NCBI GenBank assembly: GCA_039679645.1
Contig: JBDKUO010000056.1
Location: forward strand, 1-61,904
Length of the DNA stretch: 61,904 nt
Reading direction: 5' to 3'
DNA from: Armatimonadota bacterium
GTDB taxonomy: Bacteria > Armatimonadota > UBA5829
Each line of letters begins with the position of its first letter. Position 1 is the stretch's first letter. The notes below the pieces were generated by a model. It saw nothing but the letters and a program-made list of their open reading frames with translations. It was not told the origin of the DNA and did no database searches. Positions 25,247-60,460 of this stretch are shown here, piece by piece. The translations under genes and the position numbers were made by a program.

Positions 25247-25345
25247 GCAACTACCGATAATAGCAAACCCATCGAAAGGTGGGGACGCAAAGCCAACGGG
25301 ACTAACCCGGAAAGCGGTGCAGGGTCGGATTAGCCGATCAGTTGC
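25247..25345 (+). ncRNA. Cyclic-di-GMP-I riboswitch aptamer (GEMM-I)
   Basis: The element shows the GEMM-I hallmarks in order: GCAAACCC, a CGAAAG tetraloop, GGGGACGCAAAGCC, a variable GGG...CCC arm and TTAGCCGAT, closed by a P1 stem GCAACT (25247-25252) / AGTTGC (25340-25345). By my alignment to the Vibrio Vc2 aptamer, the base before CAAACC, which reads guanine 20 of the ligand pocket, is G here. That favours c-di-GMP over the cGAMP-binding variant. It would control the small ORF at 25555. Confidence 0.88.
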
Positions 25346-25359
25346 CCGCTCGGTATGTC

Positions 25360-25527
25360 AGCCGAGCTGCCGAAGTAGGAGTTGCTGATGATCAGGCACT
25401 GCCGGCGGTAATAAGTCGTCCGGTAGACCCACGTGAAATTTGCGTGGATAGGGGTCTTGAAGTATGGGCCTCGGAGTGCGCGGCGGTTTTTGATCATCGG
25501 CAATTCTATACGGCAGCTCGGCTTTTT
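25360..25527 (+). promoter_or_regulatory. Large nested stem structure with terminator tail after the riboswitch
   Basis: An outer 13-bp perfect stem (25360-25372 with 25511-25523) is directly followed by TTTTT, as in an intrinsic terminator. Inside it a second 13-bp stem (25382-25394 with 25491-25503, one G-U pair) encloses further helices: GCACT/AGTGC (25396-25400 with 25475-25479) and a GACC..CACG...CGTG..GGTC hairpin (about 25426-25456). It is a compact RNA of about 165 bases, far larger than a normal expression platform. Confidence 0.7.
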
Positions 25528-25554
25528 CGTGCTGCTGGTCTTGGAGGCCAAAAA

Positions 25555-25749
25555 ATGATGATCCCTGAAGCGAAGCAATATCTCGGTAGAAATGTAAGCG
25601 TCACTTTCCGTGATCGTCACGGCGATCTACACACCAAGACACTGCACGTGCACGAGGTGTCGTTCGTCCCGATGTATGGCGGGTGCCTCGTTGGCGACAT
25701 CGAGGATATCTGGCTGGACAAAGTAACCAGCATAAGCGCTGTCGATTAA
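25555..25749 (+). CDS. Unknown 64-residue protein under riboswitch control
   Basis: The product is small, soluble and beta-rich in appearance (RNVSVTFRDRHGDLHTKTLHVHEVSF, residues 11-36 in two pieces, ending LDKVTSISAVD), with alternating charged and hydrophobic residues. I recognise no family; a small SH3-like or Sm-like barrel would suit the pattern. GGAGG lies 7 bases before the ATG. The frame is open upstream through the structured RNA, but no ribosome site supports a longer protein. Its position after a c-di-GMP-I aptamer suggests a role in a c-di-GMP-controlled process. Confidence 0.65.
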   Translation: MMIPEAKQYLGRNVSVTFRDRHGDLHTKTLHVHEVSFVPMYGGCLVGDIEDIWLDKVTSISAVD

Positions 25750-25773: not shown

Positions 25774-25839
25774 ACCATGCAATTTACTAAGCGTAAATTG
25801 CTTAAGACCATGCAATTTACTAAGCGTAAATTGCTTAAG
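25774..25839. repeat. Tandem 33-bp direct repeat, two identical copies
   Basis: Two exact copies (25774-25806 and 25807-25839) each contain a perfect hairpin CAATTTAC-TAAGC-GTAAATTG and end in CTTAAG. They lie just downstream of the riboswitch-controlled ORF. Confidence 0.9.
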
Positions 25840-29255: not shown

Positions 29256-29284
29256 TTGACATTTTTGGGCTAATGGGGCATAAT
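29256..29284 (+). promoter_or_regulatory. Near-consensus promoter of the mvhD-metF-hdr cluster
   Basis: TTGACA and CATAAT are 17 bases apart. About 260 bases of structured leader follow before the first start codon. Confidence 0.75.
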
Positions 29285-29293
29285 TACGGTAAT

Positions 29294-29402
29294 GAGCTGG
29301 CCAGTGTCGGTCAGCATATATTTTAATGCGTGAATCGGTGTTGTTTCACGCGTAATGGACGACTTGAAGTCCACCCGGGCAGAGCGCTTTGGGTGGGCTT
29401 TT
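29294..29402 (+). promoter_or_regulatory. Structured leader, part 1, with alternative hairpins and terminator
   Basis: Hairpins GCTGGCC...GGTCAGC and GCGTGAA...TTCACGC are followed by TGGAC...GTCCA (29356-29373), which shares bases with a terminator stem CCACCC (29371-29376) / GGGTGG (29391-29396) and TTTT. The two last stems cannot form together, the usual logic of a riboswitch or attenuator. No known aptamer consensus was recognised. Confidence 0.6.
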
Positions 29403-29465
29403 GTTATCTGTGGCGCATCCGAAGTTGGATTGCGCGCGGGCTTTAGTGTTGAGCAAAATCGACGA

Positions 29466-29518
29466 GGGCGTCTTCGCCGGGGGACATGTGTGTGTCCTGT
29501 GGTGAAGACGCCCTTTTT
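29466..29518 (+). terminator. Strong terminator hairpin in the leader, part 2
   Basis: GGGCGTCTTC pairs perfectly with GAAGACGCCC, extended by a G-U and two G-C pairs, enclosing a GGACA...TGTCC hairpin; TTTTT follows. It ends 27 bases before the mvhD start, so transcription of the whole cluster must pass it. A GCGCA..TGCGC hairpin (about 29413-29436) lies upstream and may take part in control. Confidence 0.75.
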
Positions 29519-29545
29519 GCGTCTGTGGATCGGAGGCGAACGGAA

Positions 29546-29950
29546 ATGAAATGTATTCGCGTATATTACTGCTCAAACGTATTTGATGGAAATGTGGTCC
29601 CAGCCGAGCTTGCAGATTTGGGGATGCGTGATGAAGTAATTCTCGAACCGGTACCTTGTGGTGGTCGGATCGACCCGCGTTATCTTCTCAAGGCATTTGA
29701 AGAGGGAGATAACGGAGTGTGTGTGCTCACCTGCCCGCTCGGCGACTGCAGGCTGATGGAAGGCAACATCCGGGCGATGCACAGAGTCGAGTTGGCGCGC
29801 GAGTATCTGACTGAGGCAGGTATTGATCCAAAGGCTGTTGAGATAATCGTACCGAGCGAGCGAAGCGAAGAGGCGCTTAAGACGGCGATAGACAAGATCG
29901 CGTCATTTGTCGGCCAGGAAAGTCCTGCTCTTCAAGAGGTGATGGCATAG
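29546..29950 (+). CDS. MvhD-family iron-sulfur electron-transfer subunit, copy 1
   Basis: The 134-residue protein belongs to the MvhD (hydrogenase delta subunit) family, which carries a [2Fe-2S] cluster and passes electrons to HdrA. Recognisable blocks are PCGGRIDPRYLLKAFEEG and CPLGDCRLMEGNIRA. The N-terminal Cys pair of canonical members (CxxC) is reduced to one Cys (YYCSN), so its cluster may differ from that of the second copy at 42840. The start MKCIRV has GGAGG 9 bases upstream. It opens the MetF/Hdr/glutamate-synthase cluster, two bases before metF. Confidence 0.87.
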   Translation: MKCIRVYYCSNVFDGNVVPAELADLGMRDEVILEPVPCGGRIDPRYLLKAFEEGDNGVCVLTCPLGDCRLMEGNIRAMHRVELAREYLTEAGIDPKAVEIIVPSERSEEALKTAIDKIASFVGQESPALQEVMA

Positions 29951-29951
29951 A

Positions 29952-30824
29952 ATGAGTGAAGTTTTTGCAAAGGCCGTCAAAGACGGCCGGTTTATAGTGA
30001 CGGCTCAGTGTACTCCGCCGCAGGGCGCAGGCGCAAAGCAGTTGCAGGCATGCGCCGCTGCTCTCAAAGGTTCGGTAAGTGCGCTTTACGCGCCGGAATG
30101 TGAGGACGGCATAAGGCTATCGAGCCTTGCCGCATGCGCTCATCTGGCAAAGGCAGAGGTTGAGTCTATAGCTGCATTCACGACCAGGGACCACAACCGC
30201 ATTGCACTACAGTCGATGATCCTGGGCGCTGTGTCGATGGGGATAAGCAATATTTTCTGCACTGCAGGTCGGCATCAGACACTTACCTCAGCCGGGTCGG
30301 CCAAGGGCGTGTTCGATCTCGACCCGATCCAACTGCTGCAGATTGCGGATGCGATGCGTAAAAACGGCAGCCTCTCCGACGGACAGGTGATAGATTCTCC
30401 GATTGAACTGACTCTGGGCACGGACACCAATCCTTTCGCCGAGCCGGTCGAGCTGAATGTGATCGTGCTGCAAAAGGCGATAAGCGCCGGGGCGGATTTT
30501 GTGATCACGCACCCTGTCTTCGATATTGATAAGTTCAATGCCTGGATGAAAGCTGTCCGCGAGCGCGGCTTGCACGAGAAAACAGCTATCATAGCATCCG
30601 TTATGCCGCTGAGTTCAAGCGCGCAGGCGGCATCTGTTGCCGAGAAATACACTATGCCCGACGATATTGCAGCCAAGCTCCAGTCGGCAGACGCCGGCAG
30701 GCAGATGGCTGTCGATACTATCAAGAGCCTCAAGGGGATTGACGGTGTACGCGGTGTCCATCTGATGGGCGGCGATTTTGAACTCATTTCAAATATCATT
30801 AAATCAAGCGCGCTCGGGAGTTAG
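29952..30824 (+). CDS. metF: Methylenetetrahydrofolate reductase
   Basis: The 290-residue flavin TIM-barrel protein reduces 5,10-methylene-tetrahydrofolate to 5-methyl-tetrahydrofolate. It shows the N-terminal FIVTAQCTPPQGA, the FMN/FAD-contact block AAFTTRDHNR (about residues 74-83) and ADFVITHPVFDIDKF followed by VMPLSS. Linked to MetV, HdrABC and MvhD, it resembles the acetogen-type complex characterised in Moorella, in which MetF works with MetV instead of directly with NADPH. In such a complex electrons would arrive through the Hdr subunits. It follows mvhD at once. Confidence 0.93.
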   Translation: MSEVFAKAVKDGRFIVTAQCTPPQGAGAKQLQACAAALKGSVSALYAPECEDGIRLSSLAACAHLAKAEVESIAAFTTRDHNRIALQSMILGAVSMGISNIFCTAGRHQTLTSAGSAKGVFDLDPIQLLQIADAMRKNGSLSDGQVIDSPIELTLGTDTNPFAEPVELNVIVLQKAISAGADFVITHPVFDIDKFNAWMKAVRERGLHEKTAIIASVMPLSSSAQAASVAEKYTMPDDIAAKLQSADAGRQMAVDTIKSLKGIDGVRGVHLMGGDFELISNIIKSSALGS

Positions 30825-30829
30825 AGATT

Positions 30830-32194
30830 ATGCCGGCTAAATATCATATCAAAATACGTCCCGAGCCGCCCAGGCACAAGCCTATAGGCAAATACTGCAT
30901 TATAGACTGGCGCGAGGACTGCTCTTCATGCCACAACTGTGTGAAGCGTGAGTGTGCCTACAGCGTTTACAATGATGAGCGTGACCGCCTTCAGCACGTC
31001 GCAGAGGACTATGTAGAATATCTCTATGAGTGCAAGGGGTGCCTGTGCTGCGTGCAGAGCTGCACCAAGGGCCTGCTCACCCAGCGGGTCAACCCGGAGT
31101 ATCTGGCGATGGGCGACGATGTCTGGAACGCCGATATCATATCCGGCACCTGGTTTCAGGCTGAGACGGGCAAAATTCCGGTATCGGGCGCAGGTTACCC
31201 GGGACCGTTCAGGGGACCGGGGTTCGACTCGATCCTGACGGATATGTCAGAGATCGTTCGGCCTACACGTGACGGTATCCATGGCCGCGAATATATCAGC
31301 ACCCATATCGATGTCGGCCGAAAGCCTATGAAGCTGGAGTTCAACGCCGACGGCTCCCTCAAGACCGATTTTCCGACCCAGGTCGAGATTCCCCTGCCGG
31401 TTATCTTTAATATGATGCCGTGGCATTCGCCCAGCGCTAATGTCTCGCAGTCTATTCTCGACGCTGCTAATGAGCTCGGCACGTTTGCAATTACGGATGA
31501 TCCGATGCTGGCGGCAAACGATGCCGCCATGCCTCATATATCCAAAGACGCCAAGGGCGACCCTGCGATCTCCCGGTTGGCTCAGTGGGACGACTGCCCG
31601 GATGTAATGGAGAAGATCAAGGCTGCCAAGGCTGCCAACCCGAGCCTGGTCGCGATAGTAAGGCTGCCTCTGGAGTCGATCGACAGGGCTGTCGATCTTG
31701 TTAAAGCCGGGGTAGACGGTCTGCATGCCTACGCCGACTGGGAGGGTGTTGCAGGCAACGGGAAGCACATATCAATTGCGGTCCGCGACCTGCATCACGC
31801 GCTTATCGCCCAGGGGATACGTGATCAGGTAACACTTTTTGCCAGCGGCGGTATTTCACTGGCCGAGCATGTAATAAAGACGCTGCTTTGCGGAGCGGAC
31901 GCTGTCTGTGTGGATGTCCCGCTTTTGATTGCTCTCGAATGCAGAGTATGTAAGAACTGCAGACAGGGGATCAAGTGCCCGATAGGTTTGGAAAATGTGG
32001 ATCACGACTATGCAGTTCATAGAATAGTAAACCTGATGGGCGCGTGGCACTCTCAAATGCTGGAGATGATGGGCGCTATGGGTATCCGTGAGGCCAGGCG
32101 TCTGCGCGGCGAGGCCGGTAGAGCGATGTTCTTTGACGATCTGGAACGCGACTGCTTTGCGCCGGTCTTCGGCAAGAGAGTGGAGGTAAAATAA
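30830..32194 (+). CDS. Glutamate-synthase-like ferredoxin/FMN-barrel protein, divergent copy
   Basis: The 454-residue protein has N-terminal ferredoxin motifs (CSSCHNCVKREC and CKGCLCCVQSC, about residues 34-85) and a barrel related to the FMN domain of glutamate synthase (about 110-440). The C-terminal cysteine block CRVCKNCRQGIKC is kept. The loop that reads LDGSYGGTGAAP in its neighbour is YADWEGVAG here, so the active site is altered and catalysis is doubtful. It may be a structural or electron-relay partner. Its stop overlaps the next start by one base, and both share the order ferredoxin then barrel. Confidence 0.82.
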   Translation: MPAKYHIKIRPEPPRHKPIGKYCIIDWREDCSSCHNCVKRECAYSVYNDERDRLQHVAEDYVEYLYECKGCLCCVQSCTKGLLTQRVNPEYLAMGDDVWNADIISGTWFQAETGKIPVSGAGYPGPFRGPGFDSILTDMSEIVRPTRDGIHGREYISTHIDVGRKPMKLEFNADGSLKTDFPTQVEIPLPVIFNMMPWHSPSANVSQSILDAANELGTFAITDDPMLAANDAAMPHISKDAKGDPAISRLAQWDDCPDVMEKIKAAKAANPSLVAIVRLPLESIDRAVDLVKAGVDGLHAYADWEGVAGNGKHISIAVRDLHHALIAQGIRDQVTLFASGGISLAEHVIKTLLCGADAVCVDVPLLIALECRVCKNCRQGIKCPIGLENVDHDYAVHRIVNLMGAWHSQMLEMMGAMGIREARRLRGEAGRAMFFDDLERDCFAPVFGKRVEVK

Positions 32195-33726
32195 TGTCGA
32201 TTACAATAGACCCCCACAGAAAAGTCAAACCGATCCCCGATACGGGCCTGCCGGAGCCGGTCCGCGAAGTAAAGCCTGCGCCGGACCGCTGGCGCAACTC
32301 GCTCGGCAAGTACCGGGTCAAAAGATACGAGGAGCTGTGCATTAAGTGCGGCAAGTGCGCGGAAGTCTGCCCTAACGGTGTGCATGTGATGCCCGAGGGC
32401 TATGCCGGTTTCAAGAGGCCGCTCGAGAGCAAGTGCACCGCTGCTATCTGCAAAGAAAACGGGACATTCTGCGTCGATGTGTGCCCCCAGAAGGCGCTGC
32501 GCGTGGAGGTGCTTCCTTTATATGAGTCTCTGGGCGACTATCGCTGGAGCGCCGACCTGATCCTCTCGACCTGGTATATGGCTGAAACGGGTGAAGTGCC
32601 GGATGGTGAACTAAACTACAAGACAGGTAACTCAGGCGGCGGGTTCGATAAGATCGACTTCGTCTTCCCCGAAGGCGGCAAAAGGACCGATCCGAACGAG
32701 ATCAACACGTCCATCCCGCTCAACCGCAGGGAAGACGGCAGGCCCAAGATTACAATCGATCTGCCCATATACGGCGGCGGAATGTCATTCGGGTCAGTCA
32801 GCCCGGTGACTATCTTGAGCAAGGCTCGGGCCGCAACTGCCTGGAACCTTTTTACCTGCACGGGAGAGGGCGGTTATATCGAGCGCCTGGTTCCATATAA
32901 AGACCATGTAATTACACAGGTCGCGACGGGTCTCTTTGGTGTGCGTGAAGAGACAATAAGACGCGCGCCTATAGTCGAGTTCAAATATGCTCAGGGCGCA
33001 AAGCCTGGTCTGGGCGGCCACCTGTTGGGCGACAAGAACACACCCGCAGTAGCTGCAATGCGCGGAGCCATGCCCGGCACGTCGCTTTTCTCGCCTTTCC
33101 CGTTCCACAGCGTCTACTCGATTGAGGACCATAAAAAGCATATCGACTGGATCAGACACGTTAACCCTAACGCTCTGGTCTCGGCCAAGGTCTCTACTCC
33201 TGTCGATGTGGATATGGTCGCTGTCGGGTCATTTTTTGCTGGAGCCAATATAGTCCATCTGGACGGCAGCTACGGCGGGACCGGAGCTGCTCCTGAGATC
33301 GCTAAAAAGAACATCGCTATGCCGATTGAATACGCCATCCCGAAGGTCTCGCGGTTCCTGGTCGAAGAGGGGATTCGAGATCAGGTCACTCTCATCGTGA
33401 GTGGCGGCGTTAGGACTGCATACGACGTAGCTAAAGCTATTGCGCTAGGTGCGGACGGCGTAGTTATCGGCACGCCTGAGTTGGTAGCGCTTGGCTGCAT
33501 AAGGTGCGGCAGGTGCGAATCCGGCAGAGGCTGTGCACGTGGAATCGCAACTACCGACCCTGAAATGGTCAAAAAAATGGACATCGAGTGGGGCACGCAG
33601 AGACTGATCAACATGCTCCATGCTTGGCGCACTCAGATAGTCGATATTCTAAGCCGGTTCGGCATGAGCGATATAAGCGAACTGCGCGGCAGAACTGATT
33701 TACTTAAGCATCAAGATTACGAGTAG
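32194..33726 (+). CDS. Glutamate synthase FMN domain with N-terminal ferredoxin (archaeal-type GltB core)
   Basis: The 510-residue protein carries the glutamate-forming half of glutamate synthase: a ferredoxin (CIKCGKCAEVCPNG and CVDVCPQKA, about residues 50-105) and the FMN barrel with YGGGMSFGSVSPV, KPGLGGHLLG, SAKVSTPVDVDMVAVG, HLDGSYGGTGAAP and the [3Fe-4S] motif CIRCGRCESGRGC. It would amidate 2-oxoglutarate with ammonia supplied by a glutaminase subunit, using reduced ferredoxin or electrons from the GltD part of the HdrA fusion. GGAGG precedes the start. The glutaminase-GXGXG protein is encoded next. Confidence 0.92.
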   Translation: MSITIDPHRKVKPIPDTGLPEPVREVKPAPDRWRNSLGKYRVKRYEELCIKCGKCAEVCPNGVHVMPEGYAGFKRPLESKCTAAICKENGTFCVDVCPQKALRVEVLPLYESLGDYRWSADLILSTWYMAETGEVPDGELNYKTGNSGGGFDKIDFVFPEGGKRTDPNEINTSIPLNRREDGRPKITIDLPIYGGGMSFGSVSPVTILSKARAATAWNLFTCTGEGGYIERLVPYKDHVITQVATGLFGVREETIRRAPIVEFKYAQGAKPGLGGHLLGDKNTPAVAAMRGAMPGTSLFSPFPFHSVYSIEDHKKHIDWIRHVNPNALVSAKVSTPVDVDMVAVGSFFAGANIVHLDGSYGGTGAAPEIAKKNIAMPIEYAIPKVSRFLVEEGIRDQVTLIVSGGVRTAYDVAKAIALGADGVVIGTPELVALGCIRCGRCESGRGCARGIATTDPEMVKKMDIEWGTQRLINMLHAWRTQIVDILSRFGMSDISELRGRTDLLKHQDYE

Positions 33727-33788
33727 ATGACAGGTAATGGTGTAAGTGAGGTTCTTTCCAATACCTAACACCCAACACCTATCACCTG
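33726..33788. repeat. Inverted pair of GGTGTTR-type repeats
   Basis: A short degenerate left arm (33726-33745) and an inverted right arm (33759-33788) lie between the FMN-barrel gene and the glutaminase-GXGXG gene. The right arm ends 12 bases before the start codon. Confidence 0.75.
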
Positions 33789-33800
33789 CGTGAGGCATAT

Positions 33801-36410
33801 ATGAACGACTTTGCGGATAAGTTAATAAATAGCAGGGCATGGATGATGGAGGGCTGGAGCCCGTCCGAACCGCCGCACACTGAAGAAGAGGGCGGATGCG
33901 GGGTTACGGGGTTTGCCTGTTCCATTCCTGTCGGCGGCAGGCACATTTATGAGCCGTCCGTGCAGATGCATAACCGCGGCAACGGCAAGGGCGGCGGAAT
34001 CGCGGCTGTGGGTATGGTGCCGGAACAGCTCGGCGTCTCGCGGGATGTGCTTACCAACGATTACATACTTCAAATAGCGCTGCTGGACCCGGCTGCCAGG
34101 AATGCAGTCGAAGCGGACTACGTTAACCCCATGTTCGATATCCATCATGCCCAGCAGGTCGGCCATATCGACAACTGGCAGGATATCGAAGGGCTTCCGG
34201 TCTGCCCGCCTGAGATCTGCCGTTATTTTGTAAAACCCAAGAAAGATGTGCTCGCTGCTTTTGCGCAAAAGCGCGGTCTTGACGGGTTATCCCCGCGTGA
34301 CATAGAAGAGGAGTTCCTTTTCCAGAACGCATTTGAACTCAACAACAAATATTATGCTGCCATGGGCGACAAGCAGGCTTTTGTGATGAGCCAGGGCCGC
34401 AACATGATGATCCTGAAGATCGTCGGTTACGCCGAGCAGATCGTCACCTACTATCAGCTCGATGACTTCAAGGCGCATGTCTGGATCGCTCACCAGAGAT
34501 ATCCTACACGCGGACGTGTGTGGCACCCAGGCGGCGCGCACCCGTTCTGCGGCATGAACGAGGCCCTGGTGCACAACGGTGACTTCGCTAACTATTATTC
34601 TGTGTGCGAGTATCTGGCCCAGAGAAATATCAAGCCGCTGTTTCTGACCGATACCGAGGTATCTATACTGGTCTTTGATCTCTGGAGCAGGGTCTATAAA
34701 TATCCGCTGGAGTATATAATCGAGGGCCTGGCGCCCACCAGTGAGCGTGACTTCGATATGCTGCCCAAAAAGAAGCAGGAAGTGTATAAGCGGATACAGC
34801 AGGACCATATCCATGCTTCACCGGACGGGCCGTGGTTCTTTATTATCGCCAGGAATGATGTCGAAAACGACGCATTCCAGCTCCTGGGAATCACAGACAC
34901 GGCTATGCTCAGGCCACAGGTATTCGCGCTGCAGGACGGTGAGGTCCAGATCGGCCTGATCTGTTCCGAGAAACAGGCAATAGATGCAACTCTTGCCAGC
35001 CTTGCGCGTGAGGACAGCCGGTTCTGCACGGTAGCCGACAACTATTGGAACGCTCGCGGCGGCAGCTATACGGACGGCGGCACTTTTGTCTTCACCCTTA
35101 ACCATCAGGACGATGGGTCGTATAAGCTGAGCTGCGCGGACAAGTTTGGAAGAGAGCGCAAAGCAGACAGCGGAGAGCTGAAAGCAGGTGAACCTGTTGC
35201 TATAAATGAGGCCGTAGCAAATATTCCGGCGCTGCTTGCTGATGAGAGCGGAGTATCGCTCTTTAAGGCTCTAAAGAAAGCTGCATCTGGAATGAGTCTT
35301 GAGGACTTTAAGAGCCTGTGCAGCTCGATCATATCTACTGTTCAGACTGACGACCAGCGTCCGGCTGCAATAAACGGCCTGACACTTATGATCGACCGCC
35401 GCTATCACACGGGCGTAAACAGGCATGCAAGAATAGTTGAAGCTGTGGTCAATACGCTTACGGCTATATTTGAATCGGTGCCGTCCATAGTCGACGGCGG
35501 CAGTTCAAAATATGCCCGTGTGGACTGGGAGACCCGCGACGCCATGAGGGCTCCGATGGGCGATGAGGAAGTGTTGATCGTTAACGGTCACGACTTCCCG
35601 CCGGAGGGCGATGAGTGCGACGCTAGGCTGGTCTACGAAGCCTATGAAAAGGGCTGGAAGAAATTCATCTGTCACAGCTATATCGGGCAGAGGTTCCTCG
35701 GCTCGGGTCTGGGCCCGGAATCGGTCGACTGCCGGATAGACGCTTACGGCAGCACCGGCGACTACCTTGCTTCCGGTTTGGATGGCGCGGTGATAGTGGT
35801 TCACGGCAACGCTCAGGACCAGCTCGCTCAGATCATGAGGGGCGGCAAGTTGGTAATCCACGGCGATGTCGGCCAGACGTTTATGTATGGCGCCAAGGGC
35901 GGCGACGTATTTATCAGGGGCAATGCCGCTGGAAGACCGTTAATCAATGCGGTCGGCTGCCCGAAAGCGATTATAAACGGCACCTGCCTGGACTTTTTGG
36001 CTGAGTCGTTTATGGCCGGTGATCCGCTAAATGGCGGCGGGTTCGTAATATTGAACGGTGTGAAGTTCGACAGTGACGGCACTATCATCGACCTGGATAC
36101 GCCGTATTCGGGCTCGAACCTGTTCTCGCTGGCTTCGGGCGGCGCGATCTATGTCCGCGATCCGCACAACACTCTCGATGACGAACAGCTCAACGGCGGC
36201 GAGTATTATGAGCTTACCGACGCTGATTGGAAGCTGATTGAGCCTTATCTGGAAGAAAACGCACGGCTCTTTGATATATCCGTTGATCGTCTGCTTACAG
36301 TAGACGGCAAGACACTGGAACCCAGGCAGGTCTATCGCAAGGTAGCTCCGGCGCGCAAAGTTGTCGCTGCTGCTGTCGCGGATGATGCAACGGACTGTGA
36401 CGAAGACTAG
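33801..36410 (+). CDS. Class II glutamine amidotransferase fused to glutamate-synthase GXGXG domain
   Basis: The 869-residue protein joins a class II glutaminase domain (EEEGGCGVTGFAC, presumed nucleophile Cys33; HNRGNGKGGG; WIAHQRYPTRGRVWHPGGAHPF split over about 228-250; EALVHNGDFANYY) to a C-terminal GXGXG beta-helix (YIGQRFLGSGLG, ASGLDGAVIVVHGNAQDQL, GDVFIRGNAAGRPLINAVG, residues about 610-740). The central FMN domain of a normal glutamate synthase large subunit is absent and is encoded separately just upstream. Cys33 is not N-terminal, so a propeptide would have to be removed. GAGG lies 5 bases before the ATG. Confidence 0.9.
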   Translation: MNDFADKLINSRAWMMEGWSPSEPPHTEEEGGCGVTGFACSIPVGGRHIYEPSVQMHNRGNGKGGGIAAVGMVPEQLGVSRDVLTNDYILQIALLDPAARNAVEADYVNPMFDIHHAQQVGHIDNWQDIEGLPVCPPEICRYFVKPKKDVLAAFAQKRGLDGLSPRDIEEEFLFQNAFELNNKYYAAMGDKQAFVMSQGRNMMILKIVGYAEQIVTYYQLDDFKAHVWIAHQRYPTRGRVWHPGGAHPFCGMNEALVHNGDFANYYSVCEYLAQRNIKPLFLTDTEVSILVFDLWSRVYKYPLEYIIEGLAPTSERDFDMLPKKKQEVYKRIQQDHIHASPDGPWFFIIARNDVENDAFQLLGITDTAMLRPQVFALQDGEVQIGLICSEKQAIDATLASLAREDSRFCTVADNYWNARGGSYTDGGTFVFTLNHQDDGSYKLSCADKFGRERKADSGELKAGEPVAINEAVANIPALLADESGVSLFKALKKAASGMSLEDFKSLCSSIISTVQTDDQRPAAINGLTLMIDRRYHTGVNRHARIVEAVVNTLTAIFESVPSIVDGGSSKYARVDWETRDAMRAPMGDEEVLIVNGHDFPPEGDECDARLVYEAYEKGWKKFICHSYIGQRFLGSGLGPESVDCRIDAYGSTGDYLASGLDGAVIVVHGNAQDQLAQIMRGGKLVIHGDVGQTFMYGAKGGDVFIRGNAAGRPLINAVGCPKAIINGTCLDFLAESFMAGDPLNGGGFVILNGVKFDSDGTIIDLDTPYSGSNLFSLASGGAIYVRDPHNTLDDEQLNGGEYYELTDADWKLIEPYLEENARLFDISVDRLLTVDGKTLEPRQVYRKVAPARKVVAAAVADDATDCDED

Positions 36411-36668
36411 GGTCTGGGCGGATGAAATACAAGTTCGGGCGGATCTGTGATCCGGCCCGCAAATGACCAAATGGCATCTCCGATGCCACAACGTAATGCT
36501 TGAAAATTAAATGTATGGCTAACGGGATCATAGATCCCGGGGTTGTCCTATGGGGCTAGATTGCAAATCTGCCCCAACAATAGCACTTTCTTACTCCCTC
36601 TCCCATTGCCGGGAGAGGGTTGGGGTGAGGGGGACATAGCCCTCCCCTAACATGAATGAGGAACGTAT
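36411..36668. repeat. Cluster of palindromic hairpins and a REP-like element
   Basis: Five hairpins follow in 200 bases: CGGATC/GATCCG (36436-36459, extended), GGCAT/ATGCC (36473-36487), CGGGATC/GATCCCG (36523-36539), GGGGC..AGAT..ATCT..GCCCC (36552-36575), and CCCTCTCCC/GGGAGAGGG with GTTGGGGTGAGGG (36594-36632). The last resembles a repeat that is widespread in unrelated bacterial genomes. No gene is present. Confidence 0.75.
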
Positions 36669-37232
36669 ATGAGTAACTCGGCAACGATTACAAAAATAGA
36701 TCAGAGCCTGCTTGAAAAGCTGGACCCCAAGGGTGAGCTTAATCTGGCGTCTTGTCTGCAGTGCGGACGGTGCTCGGCTGGCTGCACGATGCGCCTTGAG
36801 ATGGGCATCCTTCCCCACCAGATGAACCGGATGGTCCTGCTGGGTATGGAAGACGAACTGCTTTCGAGCAAGGCCATATGGACCTGCGCGTCATGCCATA
36901 CTTGCGTATCGCGCTGCCCTATGAAGGTAAACACACCGGCGCTCATCGACAGGCTCCGCGAGATGGCAAAAAGCGCCCCGACTCAGGACCTGGAGAAGAT
37001 CAGGACCTTTAACGACGAAATGCTTAAGTCGATGAAGCTCTTCGGGCGAGTCTATGAGATGGGCATGATGGGCTTTTACAAGATGCGCACACGGGACCTC
37101 TTCAGCGATTTGGCCAAGTTCCCGACCATGCTCGCCAAGGGCAAGATGAAGATATTCCCGCCGCGCACTCGGGCGCGTAAGGCGGTCTCGACAATATTCG
37201 ACCGGGTGCATCGCGCACGGAGGGCAAAATGA
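36669..37232 (+). CDS. hdrC: Heterodisulfide reductase-like subunit C
   Basis: The 187-residue protein has the two [4Fe-4S] motifs of HdrC, CLQCGRCSAGC (residues 29-39) and CASCHTCVSRC (about 72-82), a helical core, and a basic C-terminus (RTRARKAVSTIFDRVHRARRAK). HdrC wires electrons from HdrA to the catalytic HdrB. GAGG lies 7 bases before the ATG. It stands directly before hdrB, as usual, with only a hairpin-rich spacer between. In this cluster the final acceptor is probably not a heterodisulfide but MetF/MetV or another partner. Confidence 0.95.
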   Translation: MSNSATITKIDQSLLEKLDPKGELNLASCLQCGRCSAGCTMRLEMGILPHQMNRMVLLGMEDELLSSKAIWTCASCHTCVSRCPMKVNTPALIDRLREMAKSAPTQDLEKIRTFNDEMLKSMKLFGRVYEMGMMGFYKMRTRDLFSDLAKFPTMLAKGKMKIFPPRTRARKAVSTIFDRVHRARRAK

Positions 37233-37248
37233 CACACAACCCAGTTGC

Positions 37249-37290
37249 TTCGGCAGCGAAGCTGCCGGAGCCGGGCACACAGTGCCCGAG
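37249..37290. repeat. Two palindromic hairpins between hdrC and hdrB
   Basis: CGGCAGC-GAA-GCTGCCG (37251-37267) and CGGGCAC-ACA-GTGCCCG (37272-37288) are perfect and have three-base loops. They lie inside the operon, so they are more likely RNA-processing or stability elements than terminators. Confidence 0.7.
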
Positions 37291-37311
37291 AAGCCTACGG
37301 AGGGTTAGGTG

Positions 37312-38169
37312 ATGAAATATTCATTCTTTCCGGGCTGCTCTATGGAGTCGACCGCTCACGACTTTGAGATGTCGACTCTGGCGGTCGCAAAAGCCTTAGG
37401 AATCCAGATGGAAGAACTGCCGGACTGGAGCTGCTGCGGCTCGACCCCGGCGCACGCCACCGACTCGCTATTAGCCGTATCGCTTCCGGCTCGGAACCTG
37501 GCTATAGCGCAGGGACTTGGCAGCGACCTGATCGTCTGCTGCGCATCCTGCTACGGCAGGCTGGCGACGGCTAACCGCGATCTAGCTCATGATGCCCAGC
37601 TTCGCGCCCAGGTCTCGGATATTATCGGACAGCAATACGATGGAAAAGTAAAGGTTCGACACTTTTTGCAGCTGCTCCGAGATGATTACGGCATCCCGGA
37701 GATCAAGGACAATATAGTCAAAAGTCTGAACGGTCTTAAGGTGGCTTGTTATTATGGGTGCCTGCTCACCAGACCAAAGGAACTCAGCATTCTGGATGAC
37801 CCTGAGGACCCGCAAGTGCTGGAAGATATTCTCTCGGCTGCCGGAGCTGATCCTGTCGAGTGGCCTTATAAGACAGAGTGCTGTGGCGCCAGTTTTTCGA
37901 TCACTCGCACCGATACTGTAAAGCACCTGGCAGGTGACATACTCCGTATGGCAAAAATGAGCGGTGCGGACTGCATAGCAGTGGCGTGTCCTCTGTGTCA
38001 GAGCAATCTGGATTTGCGCCAGTCCGATATTGAAAAAGAGACCGGCGAGAAGATAGGCCTGCCTGTGTTCTTCTTCACCCAGCTTTTAGGTAAGGCTCTC
38101 GGGCTTTCGGACTCTGAGCTTGGTATAAACAAATTGATGGTCAGTCCGGCTGGAATTGCCGGTCTTTAG
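37312..38169 (+). CDS. hdrB: Heterodisulfide reductase-like subunit B
   Basis: The 285-residue protein carries the CCG domains that hold the unusual non-cubane [4Fe-4S] clusters of HdrB. The first has SFFPGCSMES, SCCGSTPAH and CCASCYG; the second CYYGCLL, ECCGASF and CPLCQSN. These cysteine sets appear complete, so it should be catalytically competent in thiol/disulfide or related chemistry. GGAGGG about 8 bases upstream favours the ATG at 37312 over a GTG one codon earlier. It follows hdrC; a hairpin-rich spacer separates it from the HdrA fusion. Confidence 0.95.
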   Translation: MKYSFFPGCSMESTAHDFEMSTLAVAKALGIQMEELPDWSCCGSTPAHATDSLLAVSLPARNLAIAQGLGSDLIVCCASCYGRLATANRDLAHDAQLRAQVSDIIGQQYDGKVKVRHFLQLLRDDYGIPEIKDNIVKSLNGLKVACYYGCLLTRPKELSILDDPEDPQVLEDILSAAGADPVEWPYKTECCGASFSITRTDTVKHLAGDILRMAKMSGADCIAVACPLCQSNLDLRQSDIEKETGEKIGLPVFFFTQLLGKALGLSDSELGINKLMVSPAGIAGL

Positions 38170-38413
38170 ATTAGATGGTCCGGGATTTGAATCCCGGACT
38201 CCGGTATGGGGGATATTTATCCCCTGCATGTGTTTATGGTAATTGGTTCGGGGACTAAAGTCCCGAGAACTTGCATCCGGGAGTTAACTCCCGGATGATC
38301 AAGGAAATTCTATGCGGGTGCCATCAGATATAGCGCCCGATCAAAGAAGTTGTTCATTAGTTTCGCGTTTTCGCTCTTTCGCGCTTTCGCGATTGTGAGG
38401 CTGAGATATTATT
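38170..38413. repeat. Four palindromic hairpins and a TTTCGCG repeat before the HdrA fusion
   Basis: Perfect hairpins occur at 38179-38198 (TCCGGGATT/AATCCCGGA), 38209-38224 (GGGGATA/TATCCCC), 38249-38266 (CGGGGACT/AGTCCCGA, one base bulged) and 38275-38296 (a 22-base palindrome centred on GTTAAC). A degenerate TTTCGCG-type run (38360-38394) follows. No gene is present. Confidence 0.75.
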
Positions 38414-41400
38414 ATGGCAATCAAGAAATCGGAAAATGGCCCTGTAGGGGCGGTAATGGTCGCAGGGGGCGGCATAGCCGGAATCCAGGCGTCGCTGGAT
38501 CTCGCGAACTCTGGTTATAAGGTCTACCTGGTGGAGAAGTCGCCGTCTGTCGGCGGAAAGATGGCCCAGCTCGACAAGACCTTCCCGACGGGCGACTGCG
38601 CCACTTGTATCATATCGCCGAAACTGGTCGAATGCTCGCGAAACCTCAATATCGAAATAATACCTCAGTCGCAGGTCGAAGAGCTTACCGGCGAATCGGG
38701 CAGCTTCAAGGTCAAGCTTAAGCAGAGAGCGCGCTTTGTTGATATCAATAAGTGCAGCGCCTGCGGTGACTGCGAGAAAGTATGCCCTATAAATGTGCCC
38801 GACCCGTTCAACAGGGGTCTGGCTAAGCATACGGCGATCCATAAAGTGACCGCCCAGGCTGTGCCGAATGCGTATGTGATCGAAAAGCGCGACAGACCGC
38901 CGTGTGTCAGCGCCTGCCCTATGGGCCAGAACGTCCAGGCTTATGTCGCTCTTATCGCCAAAGGCAAGTTTGCAGAGGCAGCCGAGATTATCAAGCGTGA
39001 CAACCCGCTGCCGCTCATCTGCGGCTATGTCTGCCACAGGCCGTGCGAGAGCGAGTGCCAGCAGGGCAGATACGGCGAACCCATCTCTATAAGAAACCTC
39101 AAGCGCTTTGCAGTTGAGCACGCCGGTTCGCCGACACCCAACACCCAACACCCAACACCCGACACCTCCAAGGTGGCGATAATCGGTTCGGGACCGGCAG
39201 GCCTTGCTGCAGCCGATTATCTTGCTCGGAAGGGCTACGCAGTCACAATTTATGAGGCCATGAGTGTGCCGGGCGGTATGATGAGAGCCGGTATTCCAGA
39301 CTTCCGTCTTCCGCGCAAGGTCCTCGACAGCCAGATCAAAGATATTCTCGATTTGGGCGTGGAGCTAAAGTGCAACTCACCCATTGGCTCGGATACGACA
39401 ATCGACAGCATCTTGAAGAGCGGCTACAAGGCTGTGTTTGCCGCAGTCGGTGCCCAGAACAGCACTGATCTGGGCATCAAAGGTGAAGAGCTTAATGGTG
39501 TCCGGCCAGGAATCGAGTTCATCAAGCAGGTAAACCTTGGCGAGAAAGTCTCGCTTGGCAATAAAGTTGCCGTGATAGGCGCGGGCAACGCTGCTATGGA
39601 TATAGCGAGAACGGCTGTCCGCCTGGGCGTGAAGGATGTAACTATCATATATCGCCGCACCAAGTGCGAGATGCCCGCTGACCCGGCCGAGGTCGAGGAT
39701 GCCATCAAAGAAGGCGTCAAGTTTGTCTTCCTCACTAACCCCAAGCGGTTCGTGGGAGATGGCGGCAAGCTTACCGGTATCGAATGCCTGGATATGAAGC
39801 TTTCGGACGAGCGCGACGCTTCCGGCAGGCGCAGACCTGTCGCAGTCGAAGGCTCAGAGCACATCATTGAGTGCGACGACGCCATCCTGGCTACAGGCCA
39901 GAAAGTCGACCTGAGCTTTATGATGGGATGCGAGCTTGGAGTAAATAAGTGGGGCCTGCTCAATGTAGACCGCGTGACCCTCGCGACCGACAAGCCCGGC
40001 ATCTTTGCAGGCGGCGATGTGGTCGCAGGCGCAGGGACTTTGAGCGAGGCGGTAGCCGCAGGTAAGCGGGCTGCTGTTTCTATAGAGAGATATCTTAAGG
40101 GTGAGGACATGGTCGAGGGCCGCGATGCCGACAGCCGTATTTGGACTGATGAGAGGCACCGCGAACTCGAGCTTGCCCAGAGGCGTGAAAAGCGCCTGAA
40201 GAGTGCGCGTGTCCAGCCGGACAAGCCGGACGGGTCGTACTCAGAGGCCAAAGCTATTGAAGAGGCGAGCCGGTGTCTGGCATGCGGAGTCTGCTGCGAG
40301 TGCGGGGAGTGCGTAAAGGCATGTCTGGCTAAGGCCATTGATCACAATATGCAGGACTCGTATCGTGAGCTGGAGGTCGGCGCAGTTGTGCTGGCTCCGG
40401 GTTATGAAGAGTTCGACGCTACAATCCGCGGAGAGTTCGGCTTCGGCAGATACGCGAATGTGGTCACCAATGTCCAGTTTGAAAGGCTCCTTTCGGCAGG
40501 CGGGCCATATGCTGGCCACCTTCAGAGGATATCGGATGGCAGGGAACTCAAGAAAGTAGCCTTTATCCAGTGCGTTGGTTCGCGTGACGCGGCCAATAAC
40601 CGGCCTTACTGCTCATCTGTGTGCTGCATGGCGGCAATCAAAGAGTCTGTTGTTGCCAAAGACCACACACCGGGTCTTGAGACCACCATCTTCTACACCG
40701 ATATACGCGCGTTCGGCAAGGACTTCGACAGATATTATGAGCGCGCCAAGACAGGCGGGGTGCGCTTTGAGCGCAGCCAGATATCGCGTGTGGTCGAAAT
40801 GCCCGATACCAAGAGCTTGAGGCTTTCATATCTCAAGGACGGAAAGCCCGTTGATGAAGAGTTCGATATGGTAGTCCTCTCCACTGGTATGAGACCCAGC
40901 GAGGAGGCTCTGCGCACTGCAAAAGCGGTCGGTATTGAGTTAAACGAGTGCGGGTTCTGCAAGTCGAGTGAGTTTGCTGCTGTGGCTACCAGCCGTGATG
41001 GAATCTTCGTCGCCGGAGCTTTCCAGGAACCTAAAGACATTCCTGAGACGGTTACCCAGGCGAGCGCAGCGGCCGCTATGGCTATGGAGATGCTCTCACC
41101 TGCGCGCGGCACGCTGGTCACGCACAAGCAGTATCCCAAAGAGCGCGACGTCATCGACGAAGAGCCTAGAATCGGCGTCTTTATATGCCACTGCGGAATC
41201 AATATTGCAAGTGTGGTGGATGTGGAGAAGGTCGTAGAGGCTGCCAAGAGCATGCCTTATGTCGCCTTTGCCGACCACCAGATGTATGCCTGTGCGGACA
41301 ACACTCAGGACTATATGAAGCAGATCATAAATGAGTATAATCTGAACCGCCTGATAGTGGCGTCCTGCACGCCTCGTACACATGAGGCGCTCTTTAGAGA

Positions 41401-42802
41401 GACAGCCCGCGAGTGTGGGCTTAATCCATACCTGGTGGATATGGCGAATATCCGCGACCAATGTTCGTGGGTCCACTCAAAGGACCCTGACGCAGCGACC
41501 GCCAAGGCTATCGACCTGGTCAAAATGGCAGTCGGCAGATCGGCAAAGCTCACCGCTCTGGAGACTGAGGAACTGCCTGTCGTGCAGACTGCATTGGTGA
41601 TCGGCGGAGGGCCCAGCGGCATGAGTTCAGCTTTGAGCCTTGCAAAGCAGGGCTTCCTGGTCAATCTGGCAGAGAAATTGGATAAACTCGGCGGCAGGCT
41701 CGCTCCCGGCAAGATCCGGGATAAGCTAATTGCCGATGTCGAGAAGCACCCTATGATCAGGACATTCCTTTCGTCCAAGGTCGAAAAGCTCAGCGGATTT
41801 GTCGGCAACTTCACCAGTGAGATCAAGACACCGGAGGGAATGGTCGATATCGAGCACGGTGCGCTGATCATTGCAATAGGCGGACGTGAGTATAAACCGA
41901 CAGAATATCTCTACGGCCAGGACAAACGCGTTCTTACTCAGCGCGAGCTTGAGAACAAGTTCTCGATGGTGAGCGAGCTAGCAGCCAGGCCCACTGTCGC
42001 TATGATCCAGTGTGTGGGCTCACGAAACGAGCAGAGGCCGTTCTGCAGCCGGTCTTGCTGCACCGACGCAGTCAAGAACGCTATCCGCATAAAAGAGATG
42101 CGGCCGGACTCCAAAGTTATCGTGCTCTACAGAGACATGCGCACTTACGGCGCAAACGAGCTATTCTATCAGAAAGCGCGTGAGATGGGCGTTATCTTCC
42201 TGAGATACGACCCCGAGAACCCGCCCGAAGTGACCGGTGGCGATAAACTCAAGCTCAAGTTTATGGAGACTGAGCTCAAGATGCCGGTCAACCTGGATGT
42301 GGATATGCTGCTGCTTTCAGTCGGGACATCTCCTGCAGTGGAAAACCAGGAGATATCTGATCTGGCGAAGCTTCCGCTCAATGCGGACGGTTTCTTCCTG
42401 GAGGCGCATGTAAAGCTGCGTCCTGTGGACTTCGCGTCAGAAGGCATCTTCCTTTGCGGAAGCGCCCATTCGCCGAAGAACACTGTCGAGAATATCCAGC
42501 AGGGAAGAGCCGCAGCCGGTAGAGCCGCAACGGTCATCTCGAAGAAGACGATGAACGTCGGCGGTCAGGTGAGTGTAGTAGACACCAGAAAGTGCGTTTC
42601 GTGCCTGACATGTGTAAAGGTGTGCCCGTTCGGAGCGCCTGAGGTGAGCAAAACCAACGGCAAGAACCGTGTCGAGATTCAGGCGGCCAAGTGTATGGGC
42701 TGCGGAAGCTGCGCCTCGGCGTGCCCTGCCAAAGCTATCGAGCTGCATCACTTTATGGACAAGCAGGTCTCTGCCGCCATTGAAGCGCTGCTCAGAGCGT
42801 AA
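38414..42802 (+). CDS. HdrA-GltD-HdrA fusion flavoprotein, 1462 residues
   Basis: The protein is a tandem HdrA with an inserted GltD. Residues 1-155 start an HdrA (GGGIAGIQASLDLANSGY, then CSACGDCEKVCPINVP). About 158-560 is a complete GltD-like NAD(P)H:glutamate synthase small subunit (PPCVSACPMGQNVQ, GSGPAGLAAADYLARKG near 257, GAGNAAMDIARTAVRLG). The first HdrA resumes with CECGECVKACLAKAI (about 629) and IQCVGSRDAANNRPYCSSVCC (about 717, in two parts). A second HdrA begins at RIGVFICHCGINI (about 919), with GGGPSGMSSALSLA (1063) and IQCVGSRNEQRPFCSRSCC (1197). A C-terminal 2x[4Fe-4S] ferredoxin ends it (1394-1441). A linker at residues 240-252 is encoded by a dispersed repeat. It could take NAD(P)H electrons and bifurcate them between ferredoxin and HdrBC. 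Confidence 0.93.
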   Translation: MAIKKSENGPVGAVMVAGGGIAGIQASLDLANSGYKVYLVEKSPSVGGKMAQLDKTFPTGDCATCIISPKLVECSRNLNIEIIPQSQVEELTGESGSFKVKLKQRARFVDINKCSACGDCEKVCPINVPDPFNRGLAKHTAIHKVTAQAVPNAYVIEKRDRPPCVSACPMGQNVQAYVALIAKGKFAEAAEIIKRDNPLPLICGYVCHRPCESECQQGRYGEPISIRNLKRFAVEHAGSPTPNTQHPTPDTSKVAIIGSGPAGLAAADYLARKGYAVTIYEAMSVPGGMMRAGIPDFRLPRKVLDSQIKDILDLGVELKCNSPIGSDTTIDSILKSGYKAVFAAVGAQNSTDLGIKGEELNGVRPGIEFIKQVNLGEKVSLGNKVAVIGAGNAAMDIARTAVRLGVKDVTIIYRRTKCEMPADPAEVEDAIKEGVKFVFLTNPKRFVGDGGKLTGIECLDMKLSDERDASGRRRPVAVEGSEHIIECDDAILATGQKVDLSFMMGCELGVNKWGLLNVDRVTLATDKPGIFAGGDVVAGAGTLSEAVAAGKRAAVSIERYLKGEDMVEGRDADSRIWTDERHRELELAQRREKRLKSARVQPDKPDGSYSEAKAIEEASRCLACGVCCECGECVKACLAKAIDHNMQDSYRELEVGAVVLAPGYEEFDATIRGEFGFGRYANVVTNVQFERLLSAGGPYAGHLQRISDGRELKKVAFIQCVGSRDAANNRPYCSSVCCMAAIKESVVAKDHTPGLETTIFYTDIRAFGKDFDRYYERAKTGGVRFERSQISRVVEMPDTKSLRLSYLKDGKPVDEEFDMVVLSTGMRPSEEALRTAKAVGIELNECGFCKSSEFAAVATSRDGIFVAGAFQEPKDIPETVTQASAAAAMAMEMLSPARGTLVTHKQYPKERDVIDEEPRIGVFICHCGINIASVVDVEKVVEAAKSMPYVAFADHQMYACADNTQDYMKQIINEYNLNRLIVASCTPRTHEALFRETARECGLNPYLVDMANIRDQCSWVHSKDPDAATAKAIDLVKMAVGRSAKLTALETEELPVVQTALVIGGGPSGMSSALSLAKQGFLVNLAEKLDKLGGRLAPGKIRDKLIADVEKHPMIRTFLSSKVEKLSGFVGNFTSEIKTPEGMVDIEHGALIIAIGGREYKPTEYLYGQDKRVLTQRELENKFSMVSELAARPTVAMIQCVGSRNEQRPFCSRSCCTDAVKNAIRIKEMRPDSKVIVLYRDMRTYGANELFYQKAREMGVIFLRYDPENPPEVTGGDKLKLKFMETELKMPVNLDVDMLLLSVGTSPAVENQEISDLAKLPLNADGFFLEAHVKLRPVDFASEGIFLCGSAHSPKNTVENIQQGRAAAGRAATVISKKTMNVGGQVSVVDTRKCVSCLTCVKVCPFGAPEVSKTNGKNRVEIQAAKCMGCGSCASACPAKAIELHHFMDKQVSAAIEALLRA
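39133..39167. repeat. GGTGTTR-type repeat inside the HdrA fusion gene
   Basis: On the plus strand this reads as tandem ACACCCA words, the inverse of the intergenic repeat family. It is in frame and encodes the low-complexity peptide TPNTQHPTPDTS between the ferredoxin-like and flavin parts of the GltD domain. Confidence 0.9.
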
Positions 42803-42839
42803 TTTATAGTTGAGAATCAAGAATTGAGAGATCAATCGT

Positions 42840-43280
42840 ATGGATAACTTTGAACCGAAAATACTGGCGTTGTGCTGTCATTACTGCGCATACGCCGCTG
42901 CGGACCTGGCGGGTTCTATGCGGCTGCAATATCCGGCAAACGTGCGTGTGCTTAGGCTCCCGTGCACCGGCAAGGTGGACCCGGGCTATATAATGACCGC
43001 ATTTGAGAAGGGCATTGACGGCGTGCTTGTGGCCGGCTGCCTGGAGGGCGGATGCCACTTCCAGGAGGGCAACCTGCGGGCTAAAAGGCGTGTGGCACTC
43101 GTCCGTGAGATGCTGGAGGAAGCCGGAATAGAGAAAGACAGGCTGGAGATGTTTAACCTCTCCTCAGCCGAAGGACCCAGGTTCGCTGAGATAGTCGGTA
43201 TAATGGCCGACCGGATCAAAAAGCTCGGACCAAATCCATTGAGACGCGAAAGCGCTCAGGTGACAGGTGTTAGGGGTTAG
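42840..43280 (+). CDS. mvhD: MvhD-family iron-sulfur electron-transfer subunit, copy 2
   Basis: The 146-residue protein is a canonical MvhD: ALCCHYCAYAAADLAG (CxxC near residues 12-16), LPCTGKVDPGYIMTAF and GCLEGGCHFQEGN supply the [2Fe-2S] ligands. It would connect the HdrA fusion to an electron donor or acceptor. Its last residues (QVTGVRG) and stop codon are encoded by a GGTGTTR-type repeat arm, which suggests that the original C-terminus was replaced or extended by repeat insertion. It lies 37 bases after the HdrA fusion and 8 bases before metV. Confidence 0.93.
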   Translation: MDNFEPKILALCCHYCAYAAADLAGSMRLQYPANVRVLRLPCTGKVDPGYIMTAFEKGIDGVLVAGCLEGGCHFQEGNLRAKRRVALVREMLEEAGIEKDRLEMFNLSSAEGPRFAEIVGIMADRIKKLGPNPLRRESAQVTGVRG

Positions 43281-43287
43281 GTGTTGA
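43257..43287. repeat. GGTGTTR-type repeat across the mvhD-metV junction
   Basis: The repeat encodes the C-terminal residues and TAG stop of the second MvhD, and its GGTG words provide the only Shine-Dalgarno-like sequence before metV. Confidence 0.8.
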
Positions 43288-43288
43288 T

Positions 43289-43960
43289 ATGATCGTTGCA
43301 CAAAGAAAAAACATAAAAGAACTTAAGGATATCCTGGCGCAGCACAAGCGCATACTGGTGCTGGGCTGCGGCACATGCGTCACTGTCTGCCTTGCAGGCG
43401 GTGAGCGCGAGGTCGGCATGATCAGCTCCGCTCTGCGGATTGCGTATAAGCTCGACGATCAGGAGCATGAGATAAATGAGCTGACGATTGAGCGCCAGTG
43501 CGAGAACGAGTTCTTCGAAGATGCTATAGAGGCTGTCCAGAACGTGGATGCAGTGCTCTCTCTGGCCTGCGGCGCCGGCGTTCAGGCTACAGCCGAGAGG
43601 TTCCCGAACACTCCCGTATACGCAGGGCTGGACACCAAGTTCATCGGCGTTTTGCAGGAGCAGGGTATCTGGACCGAGAAGTGTGCAGCCTGCGGCAAGT
43701 GCGTGCTGGGCGAATACGGCGCTGTCTGCCCGGTCACCCGCTGCTCAAAGAGCCTACTCAACGGCCCATGCGGAAATGCCCGCAACGGCAAGTGCGAAGT
43801 CTCACCGGACCTCGACTGCGGCTGGCAGCTTATCTATGACCGCCTAAAAGCCATCGGCCAGCTCGACAGGCTCCGGGAGATCGTATCACCGCAGGACTGG
43901 TCAGTAAGCCATTCGGGCGGATGCAGGAAGATCGTGCGTGAAGATCAGAGAATCGGTTGA
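43289..43960 (+). CDS. metV: MetV, zinc/iron-sulfur partner of methylenetetrahydrofolate reductase
   Basis: The 223-residue protein belongs to the MTHFR C-terminal-like (MetV) family: an N-terminal segment GCGTCVTVCLAGGEREV (about residues 27-43) and the cysteine-rich C-terminal block CAACGKCVLGEYGAVCPVTRC with GPCGN and GKCEV (split over about 130-172). MetV stabilises MetF and in Moorella joins it to HdrABC-MvhD. Here metF lies at the opposite end of the cluster, 12 kb upstream on the same strand, which argues that the intervening glutamate-synthase and Hdr genes belong to the same assembly. Confidence 0.93.
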   Translation: MIVAQRKNIKELKDILAQHKRILVLGCGTCVTVCLAGGEREVGMISSALRIAYKLDDQEHEINELTIERQCENEFFEDAIEAVQNVDAVLSLACGAGVQATAERFPNTPVYAGLDTKFIGVLQEQGIWTEKCAACGKCVLGEYGAVCPVTRCSKSLLNGPCGNARNGKCEVSPDLDCGWQLIYDRLKAIGQLDRLREIVSPQDWSVSHSGGCRKIVREDQRIG

Positions 43961-59338: not shown

Positions 59339-59349
59339 TAATACACCAG

Positions 59350-59438
59350 TTCTAAAAATTCTGAATTCTAAATTTTGAATTCTGAGTTGAGCACGAGTTT
59401 CCTCATAACTCAAAATTCAGAATTCAAAATTCATAATT
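59350..59438. repeat. Inverted pair of GAATTCTGAATT-type repeats
   Basis: The left arm (59350-59389) and inverted right arm (59404-59438) are made of words such as GAATTCT and AAATTTT. They fill the pta-ackA spacer. The right arm touches the pta stop codon. Confidence 0.8.
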
Positions 59439-60435: not shown

Positions 60436-60460
60436 TGTTATCAACTCCACTGTACAGCGC

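Follow-up and report, generated by a model that had tools for sequence, protein, structure and literature searches.

Linkage of a glutamate synthase core to MvhD, MetV and heterodisulfide reductase genes in Armatimonadota and Thermodesulfobacteriota

The 61,904-nucleotide stretch of DNA analyzed here (hereafter, the window) is contig JBDKUO010000056.1 (C56) of assembly GCA_039679645.1, the 3.41 Mb, 99.7% complete genome of an Armatimonadota bacterium congeneric with Armatimonadetes bacterium UBA5829. The window contains a cluster of ten genes, all on the + strand (29546-43960), in the order mvhD1-metF-fmnC-gltB2-glutaminase/GXGXG-hdrC-hdrB-hdrA-mvhD2-metV, which interleaves the catalytic parts of a glutamate synthase with genes for MvhD-type electron-transfer proteins, heterodisulfide reductase (Hdr) subunits, and the MetV and MetF proteins. 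An earlier note on this DNA, made from the sequence alone, had described these genes in this order, and our analysis confirms the arrangement, which is the same in related genomes. We argue below that the cluster probably encodes a glutamate synthase that uses an MvhD/MetV/Hdr electron module instead of the small subunit, GltD, and in which the MetF-like protein is a degenerate adaptor.

Glutamate synthases, which are central to nitrogen assimilation, are described as NADPH-, NADH- or ferredoxin-dependent enzymes. In the window, the catalytic core is encoded by three adjacent genes. The product of gltB2 (32194..33726) combines a ferredoxin domain with a catalytic flavin mononucleotide (FMN)/Fe-S domain (PF01645, 2.2e-93; match to glutamate synthase (GOGAT) in PDB, 4.5e-49), and shares with E. 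coli GltB the FMN motifs of GOGAT (GEGG, AQGAKPG and GGTGA.P) and the Fe-S cysteines. The next gene (33801..36410) encodes a fusion of a class-II glutaminase (PF13522) with the GXGXG structural domain of GOGAT (PF01493, 6.7e-15). The glutaminase nucleophile is Cys33, predicted to follow a 32-residue propeptide, and all seven catalytic positions checked (the nucleophile Cys together with Arg, His and Asn-Gly) are conserved in 99 of the 99 sequences. The third component, fmnC (30830..32194), carries two N-terminal [4Fe-4S] motifs, which are kept in 94-95 of 96 aligned rows, a degenerate GltB FMN-domain barrel, and a C-terminal four-cysteine site (Cys371/374/377/383). This protein lacks the GEGG and AKPG motifs, and the top match of its AlphaFold2 model is the GOGAT FMN domain (Z 22.7, rmsd 3.2, 296 residues). 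The two FMN-barrel ferredoxin proteins recognized in the earlier note do, indeed, both belong to the GltB FMN family and carry Fe-S motifs of the ferredoxin type; the first of the two is a degenerate paralogue. In ten genomes, fmnC and gltB2 are fused into one gene; the AlphaFold model of a natural fusion was poor (pLDDT 55) and was left out of the analysis. A nearly invariant block of fmnC, TDMSEIVRPTRDGIHGREYI, is modeled with low confidence in the monomer, as might be expected of an interface.

The core is followed by hdrC (36669..37232; TIGR03290, 2.3e-15), hdrB (37309..38169; two CCG domains, PF02754; TIGR03288, 2.5e-61), and hdrA of the Moorella type (38414..42802). The long gaps that separate these operon genes (36411-36668 and 38170-38413) are filled with short palindromic repeats in the window genome; in the closest relative, G242, both junctions are short. 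In the window HdrA (1,462 aa), a Fd/TrxR domain is split by a GltD (NAD(P)H/FAD) domain, and a second HdrA unit follows, so that the protein has two TrxR domains in addition to the inserted GltD. The layout is that of Moorella HdrA, a 1,487 aa protein in which an additional Fd and TrxR domain is split by a GltD domain ([4Fe-4S]/FAD/NAD(P)H), and in which both TrxR domains contain the E/K residues of bifurcation (PMC9430772). Because the layouts coincide, the apparent fourth part of the glutamate synthase is a component of the Hdr module. In the regions fetched around the cores, no standalone GltD open reading frame (ORF) was detected and GltD-like sequence lies solely inside HdrA; GltD was rejected as a dedicated glutamate synthase subunit. 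Thus, of the complete set of four glutamate synthase parts proposed in the earlier note, the glutaminase, FMN and GXGXG parts stand, and the GltD part is a regular domain of HdrA proteins of the Moorella type (PMC9430772). The window HdrA keeps E690/K743, a flavin site of the E356/K409 type by alignment to 5odc, and E1180/K1221 form a second pair when the second domain is aligned to the first; these pairs are a suggestive signature of flavin-based electron bifurcation. An in-frame array of ACACCCA heptamers (39134-39166, translated PTPNTQHPTPDT) lies in hdrA directly before the GltD domain.

Of the two MvhD proteins, the product of mvhD1 (29546..29950; PF02662, 2e-21; orthologues in eight relatives) is an MvhD/FlpD-type [2Fe-2S] electron-transfer protein on the glutamate synthase side, and that of mvhD2 (42840..43280; PF02662, 1e-49) is the MvhD partner of HdrA. 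The last gene, metV (43289..43960; PF12225, 1.1e-36), encodes the long form of this Fe-S protein, with cysteines that are kept in the alignment of relatives. The product of the metF-like gene (29952..30824; PF02219, 6.8e-19) has the methylenetetrahydrofolate reductase (MTHFR) fold; alignment with E. coli MetF places Q28, R120 and H183 at the positions of Glu28, Asp120 and Gln183. Several Armatimonadota relatives keep Glu28 or Gln183. Asp120, which in E. coli MTHFR contacts both the folate and the flavin, is lost in all ten Armatimonadota cluster MetF proteins, being replaced by Arg in eight, Lys in one and Thr in one. The two other MetF proteins of the window genome keep all three residues. 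Among relatives, MetF is 38-83% identical compared with 73-94% for MetV. As judged from the alignments, the window MetF is a probable degenerate adaptor rather than a methylene-tetrahydrofolate (THF) reductase, and the reaction assigned to it in the earlier note is not supported, given the disappearance of Asp120 from every Armatimonadota member. A role of the cluster MetF as a Wood-Ljungdahl enzyme is likewise disfavored because the window genome encodes a second MetV-MetF pair (C20 17349-18677), next to genes read by eye as those for formate-THF ligase and a methyltransferase, and because a search of the nine cluster genomes for acetyl-CoA synthase (ACS) gave no match in five (G241 is only 80% complete). 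Only four genomes yielded a match, among them the window genome, where it lies outside the window (C55 17419-17883), so that the cluster is not coupled to the Wood-Ljungdahl pathway.

We sampled two phyla, Armatimonadota and Thermodesulfobacteriota. Of 291 Armatimonadota genomes searched for the fused glutaminase/GXGXG protein, nine from the class of the window genome (this genome included) and one from outside the class, G007, encode homologues of full or almost full length. The gene set is shared by all ten, at identities down to 38-70%, and the gene order is unchanged wherever the contigs permit reading. Furthermore, the nine class genomes with a long, high-scoring MetV are exactly those nine that encode the fused protein. 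By PF01645, the cluster is the sole glutamate synthase in eight of these nine genomes (G244 has a separate, split one), and ten other genomes of the class have a conventional glutamate synthase in its place. This replacement counts against the idea that the core is a relative of N-methylglutamate synthase (MgsABC), tied to one-carbon (C1) metabolism, and not a glutamate synthase at all. C1 genes do lie nearby, and Mgs consists of the same three domain types and has a glutamine synthetase-like neighbor in methylotrophs. The synthetases near the present cores, however, are GlnA at the equivalog level (all four of the type I enzymes checked are above the cut-off). Moreover, the Mgs reaction is redox-neutral, so that the electron-transfer genes that accompany nearly every core also argue against this relationship, which we consider highly improbable.

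Among the 395 Thermodesulfobacteriota genomes scanned, the fused protein is encoded in 100 and MetV of the cluster type in 272; in the regions taken from nearly all of the 100, the upstream side could be resolved for 79 loci. The core (fmnC-gltB2-glutaminase/GXGXG) adjoins mvhD and/or metV in 70 of these (MvhD in 67, MetV in 59). Upstream of the core, 39 loci encode MvhD, MetV and MetF, and nine the same three proteins with HdrA; eight encode MvhD and MetV without MetF, nine MvhD only, two MvhD and HdrA, and three, near a contig edge, MetV and MetF. A GlcD-FeS flavoprotein occupies this position in eight loci, and neither type of gene is found in one. In the Syntrophaceae and Smithella loci, the same core has the GlcD-FeS gene directly upstream (L001 5002-6852 and L002 5034-6884), GSIII and NtrC/NifA-like genes are located nearby, and MetVF-Hdr is absent; GlcD-FeS is a possible further electron-input module. 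Glutamine synthetase genes are present near several cores, including most of the clade that lacks metF. In an unrooted, quickly built gltB2 tree, the window sequence groups with those of other Hdr-type clusters in a clade of twelve that spans both phyla, the metF-less loci with MvhD and MetV form one clade, and nine GlcD loci form another.

Given that the gene order is conserved across two phyla, chance adjacency can be rejected. The same gene order, which the earlier note had proposed to look for in other genomes, recurs in the nine class genomes and G007, and the linkage of the core with mvhD and metV extends to Thermodesulfobacteriota. This linkage in both phyla, together with the cluster being the sole glutamate synthase of eight of the nine class genomes, supports the view of the earlier note that the parts belong together. 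The condition that the earlier note gave for refutation nevertheless applies in part: the core also occurs without MetVF-Hdr, with GlcD-FeS instead, and MetF is dispensable in the mvhD-metV-core clade. Conversely, as to whether MetVF-Hdr can remain intact where the glutamate synthase genes are exchanged or missing, it is found alone in Moorella and Sporomusa. These observations bear on the model of the earlier note, a single assembly that would combine methylene- or methyl-THF reduction or oxidation with glutamate formation, confurcating or bifurcating NAD(P)H electrons. This model accommodates the fact that, in most Thermodesulfobacteriota loci, metV-metF immediately precedes the core. Because 38 of the 41 core-linked MetF proteins in this phylum keep Asp120, a coupling of methyl-THF/methylene-THF conversion to glutamate synthase is possible in most of these loci, where MetF is intact and HdrA is not alongside. 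The exceptions, L116, L119 and L161, all have Hdr genes nearby; L118, which has Hdr genes close by as well, keeps Asp120. The model is at odds with the Arg, Lys or Thr in place of Asp120 throughout Armatimonadota, with Gln in place of Glu28 in the window MetF, and with an entire clade without metF, and appears improbable to us.

In the simplest reading, MvhD and MetV (optionally with MetF and Hdr) or GlcD-FeS would be interchangeable electron-input modules that take the place of GltD. In the window cluster, the glutaminase would free ammonia from glutamine, and gltB2, with its FMN and Fe-S cofactors, would reduce 2-iminoglutarate to glutamate. The catalytically degenerate FMN-domain paralogue fmnC, rich in Fe-S clusters, would serve as the electron entry subunit. 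Electrons from NAD(P)H would enter at the GltD domain within HdrA and pass through the HdrA flavins to HdrBC, then to MvhD and MetV, and on to fmnC; the MetF-like protein, having lost methylene-THF reduction, would act as an adaptor or relay. We infer that these proteins form one physical complex and that electrons flow in this direction.

Several observations weigh against a glutamate synthase fed in this manner. HdrA is absent beside the core in most Thermodesulfobacteriota clusters. Glutamate dehydrogenase is also encoded in the window genome, so that the cluster is not the sole route to glutamate. The four-cysteine site of fmnC, found in 80 of 81 MvhD/MetV loci compared with 1 of 10 GlcD loci, speaks for such a synthase, but the correlation leans largely on one GlcD clade (nine of the ten rows) and is therefore close to a single event. 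The GAGNAA sequence from residue 389 of the window HdrA is a GXGXXA motif, which, by the rule for NAD(P) motifs quoted in PMC12054007, suggests NADP rather than NAD as the cofactor; for this reason, we write the donor as NAD(P)H. The Moorella-type MetVF-Hdr functions without glutamate synthase (PMC9430772), and co-transcription need not imply one complex. In an alternative reading, one operon encodes two separate complexes, co-regulated because both are anabolic: a glutamate synthase of the ferredoxin type and a methylene-THF reductase that corresponds to the MetVF-HdrCBA-MvhD complex of Moorella. In its favor, all six genes for the latter are present, no glutamate synthase is needed by the complexes of Moorella and Sporomusa (PMC9430772), and both gltB2 and fmnC carry ferredoxin domains of their own. 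This alternative does not account for the loss of Asp120 in Armatimonadota, for the retention of metV-mvhD beside the core where metF is gone, or for the presence of mvhD or GlcD-FeS at nearly every core. The additional MetVF pair next to the formate-THF ligase-like gene argues against it as well, and we regard it as unlikely.

If glutamate synthase is fed by MvhD/MetV/Hdr, a further possibility arises. Glutamate formation with NAD(P)H is strongly exergonic, which would leave room for the reduction of ferredoxin at bifurcating HdrA flavins. NAD(P)H electrons might then be split at HdrA between glutamate, in a high-potential branch via MvhD/MetV/fmnC, and ferredoxin, in a low-potential branch, such that assimilation conserves energy; this extension is plausible but speculative, and less likely than not. 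We found no description of an MvhD/MetV/Hdr-linked glutamate synthase in the open-access papers searched, in line with the earlier note, which knew of no described enzyme of such composition. The cluster points to a route, so far undescribed, by which anaerobes could drive nitrogen assimilation. If so, an Hdr-fed glutamate synthase, widespread in strict anaerobes, would be an added class of this enzyme, and a role would emerge for the MvhD/MetV proteins of many Thermodesulfobacteriota genomes. The annotation of all MetF/MetV pairs as Wood-Ljungdahl enzymes would also call for caution, given that the cluster is present in class genomes that gave no match to ACS. If the synthase is bifurcating, energy would be conserved by an anabolic step.

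The cluster is preceded, on the + strand, by a predicted promoter-like site, TTGACA-17-CATAAT (29256..29284; 11 of 12 consensus matches in a scan), and a structured leader (29290..29545; RNA fold z -7.6), with tandem terminator-like hairpins at 29366-29401 and about 29463-29518, right before mvhD1. The leader contains a conserved element, GACGAGGGCGTC; it also precedes the cluster in G242, G241 and G244, and has diverged in G230, G224 and G225. No further exact or one-mismatch match to the motif was detected across the window genome. A search of leader 29290-29545 against Rfam yielded no family at the gathering threshold and no credible riboswitch match, and a known riboswitch was accordingly rejected; by its predicted structure, the leader is a candidate attenuator or riboswitch. 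Elsewhere in the window, a c-di-GMP-I riboswitch (25252-25374, + strand, 69.6 bits) lies ahead of a short ORF (25342-25749), and a 33-bp sequence is perfectly duplicated in tandem at 25774-25839. On the - strand, acetate kinase and phosphotransacetylase genes (58124-60450) adjoin a fatty-acid synthesis cluster, which fits a fermentative or acetogenic anaerobe.

Four known systems come close to the window cluster. One is the MetVF-HdrCBA-MvhD complex of Moorella thermoacetica, reportedly described by Mock et al. 2014. The Moorella cluster unites the same six gene families, and its HdrA has the same GltD insert, two TrxR domains and E/K pairs (PMC9430772). The window set differs in being interleaved with the glutamate synthase core, in the second MvhD, in having MetF toward one end and MetV at the other, and in the lack of Asp120 in MetF. 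HdrL, or type III HdrA, similarly contains, besides HdrA, an NAD(P)H domain resembling GltD, and is often adjacent to mvhD, but, in the passages of PMC2702500 and PMC12054007 consulted, glutamate synthase catalytic subunits are not reported with it. The NADPH-dependent GltB/GltD enzymes of Azospirillum and E. coli share their glutaminase, FMN/Fe-S and GXGXG parts, including the catalytic motifs, with the window cluster; in the latter, by contrast, the large subunit is split, an extra degenerate FMN-barrel subunit is present, and MvhD/MetV/Hdr stand in for a separate GltD. Finally, in the putative F420-dependent glutamate synthase clusters of anaerobic methanotrophic archaea (ANME), which include FrhB10 (PMC9012536), the subunits are also clustered with an electron donor other than GltD, the donor there being FrhB/F420H2 and, in the window, MvhD/MetV/Hdr.

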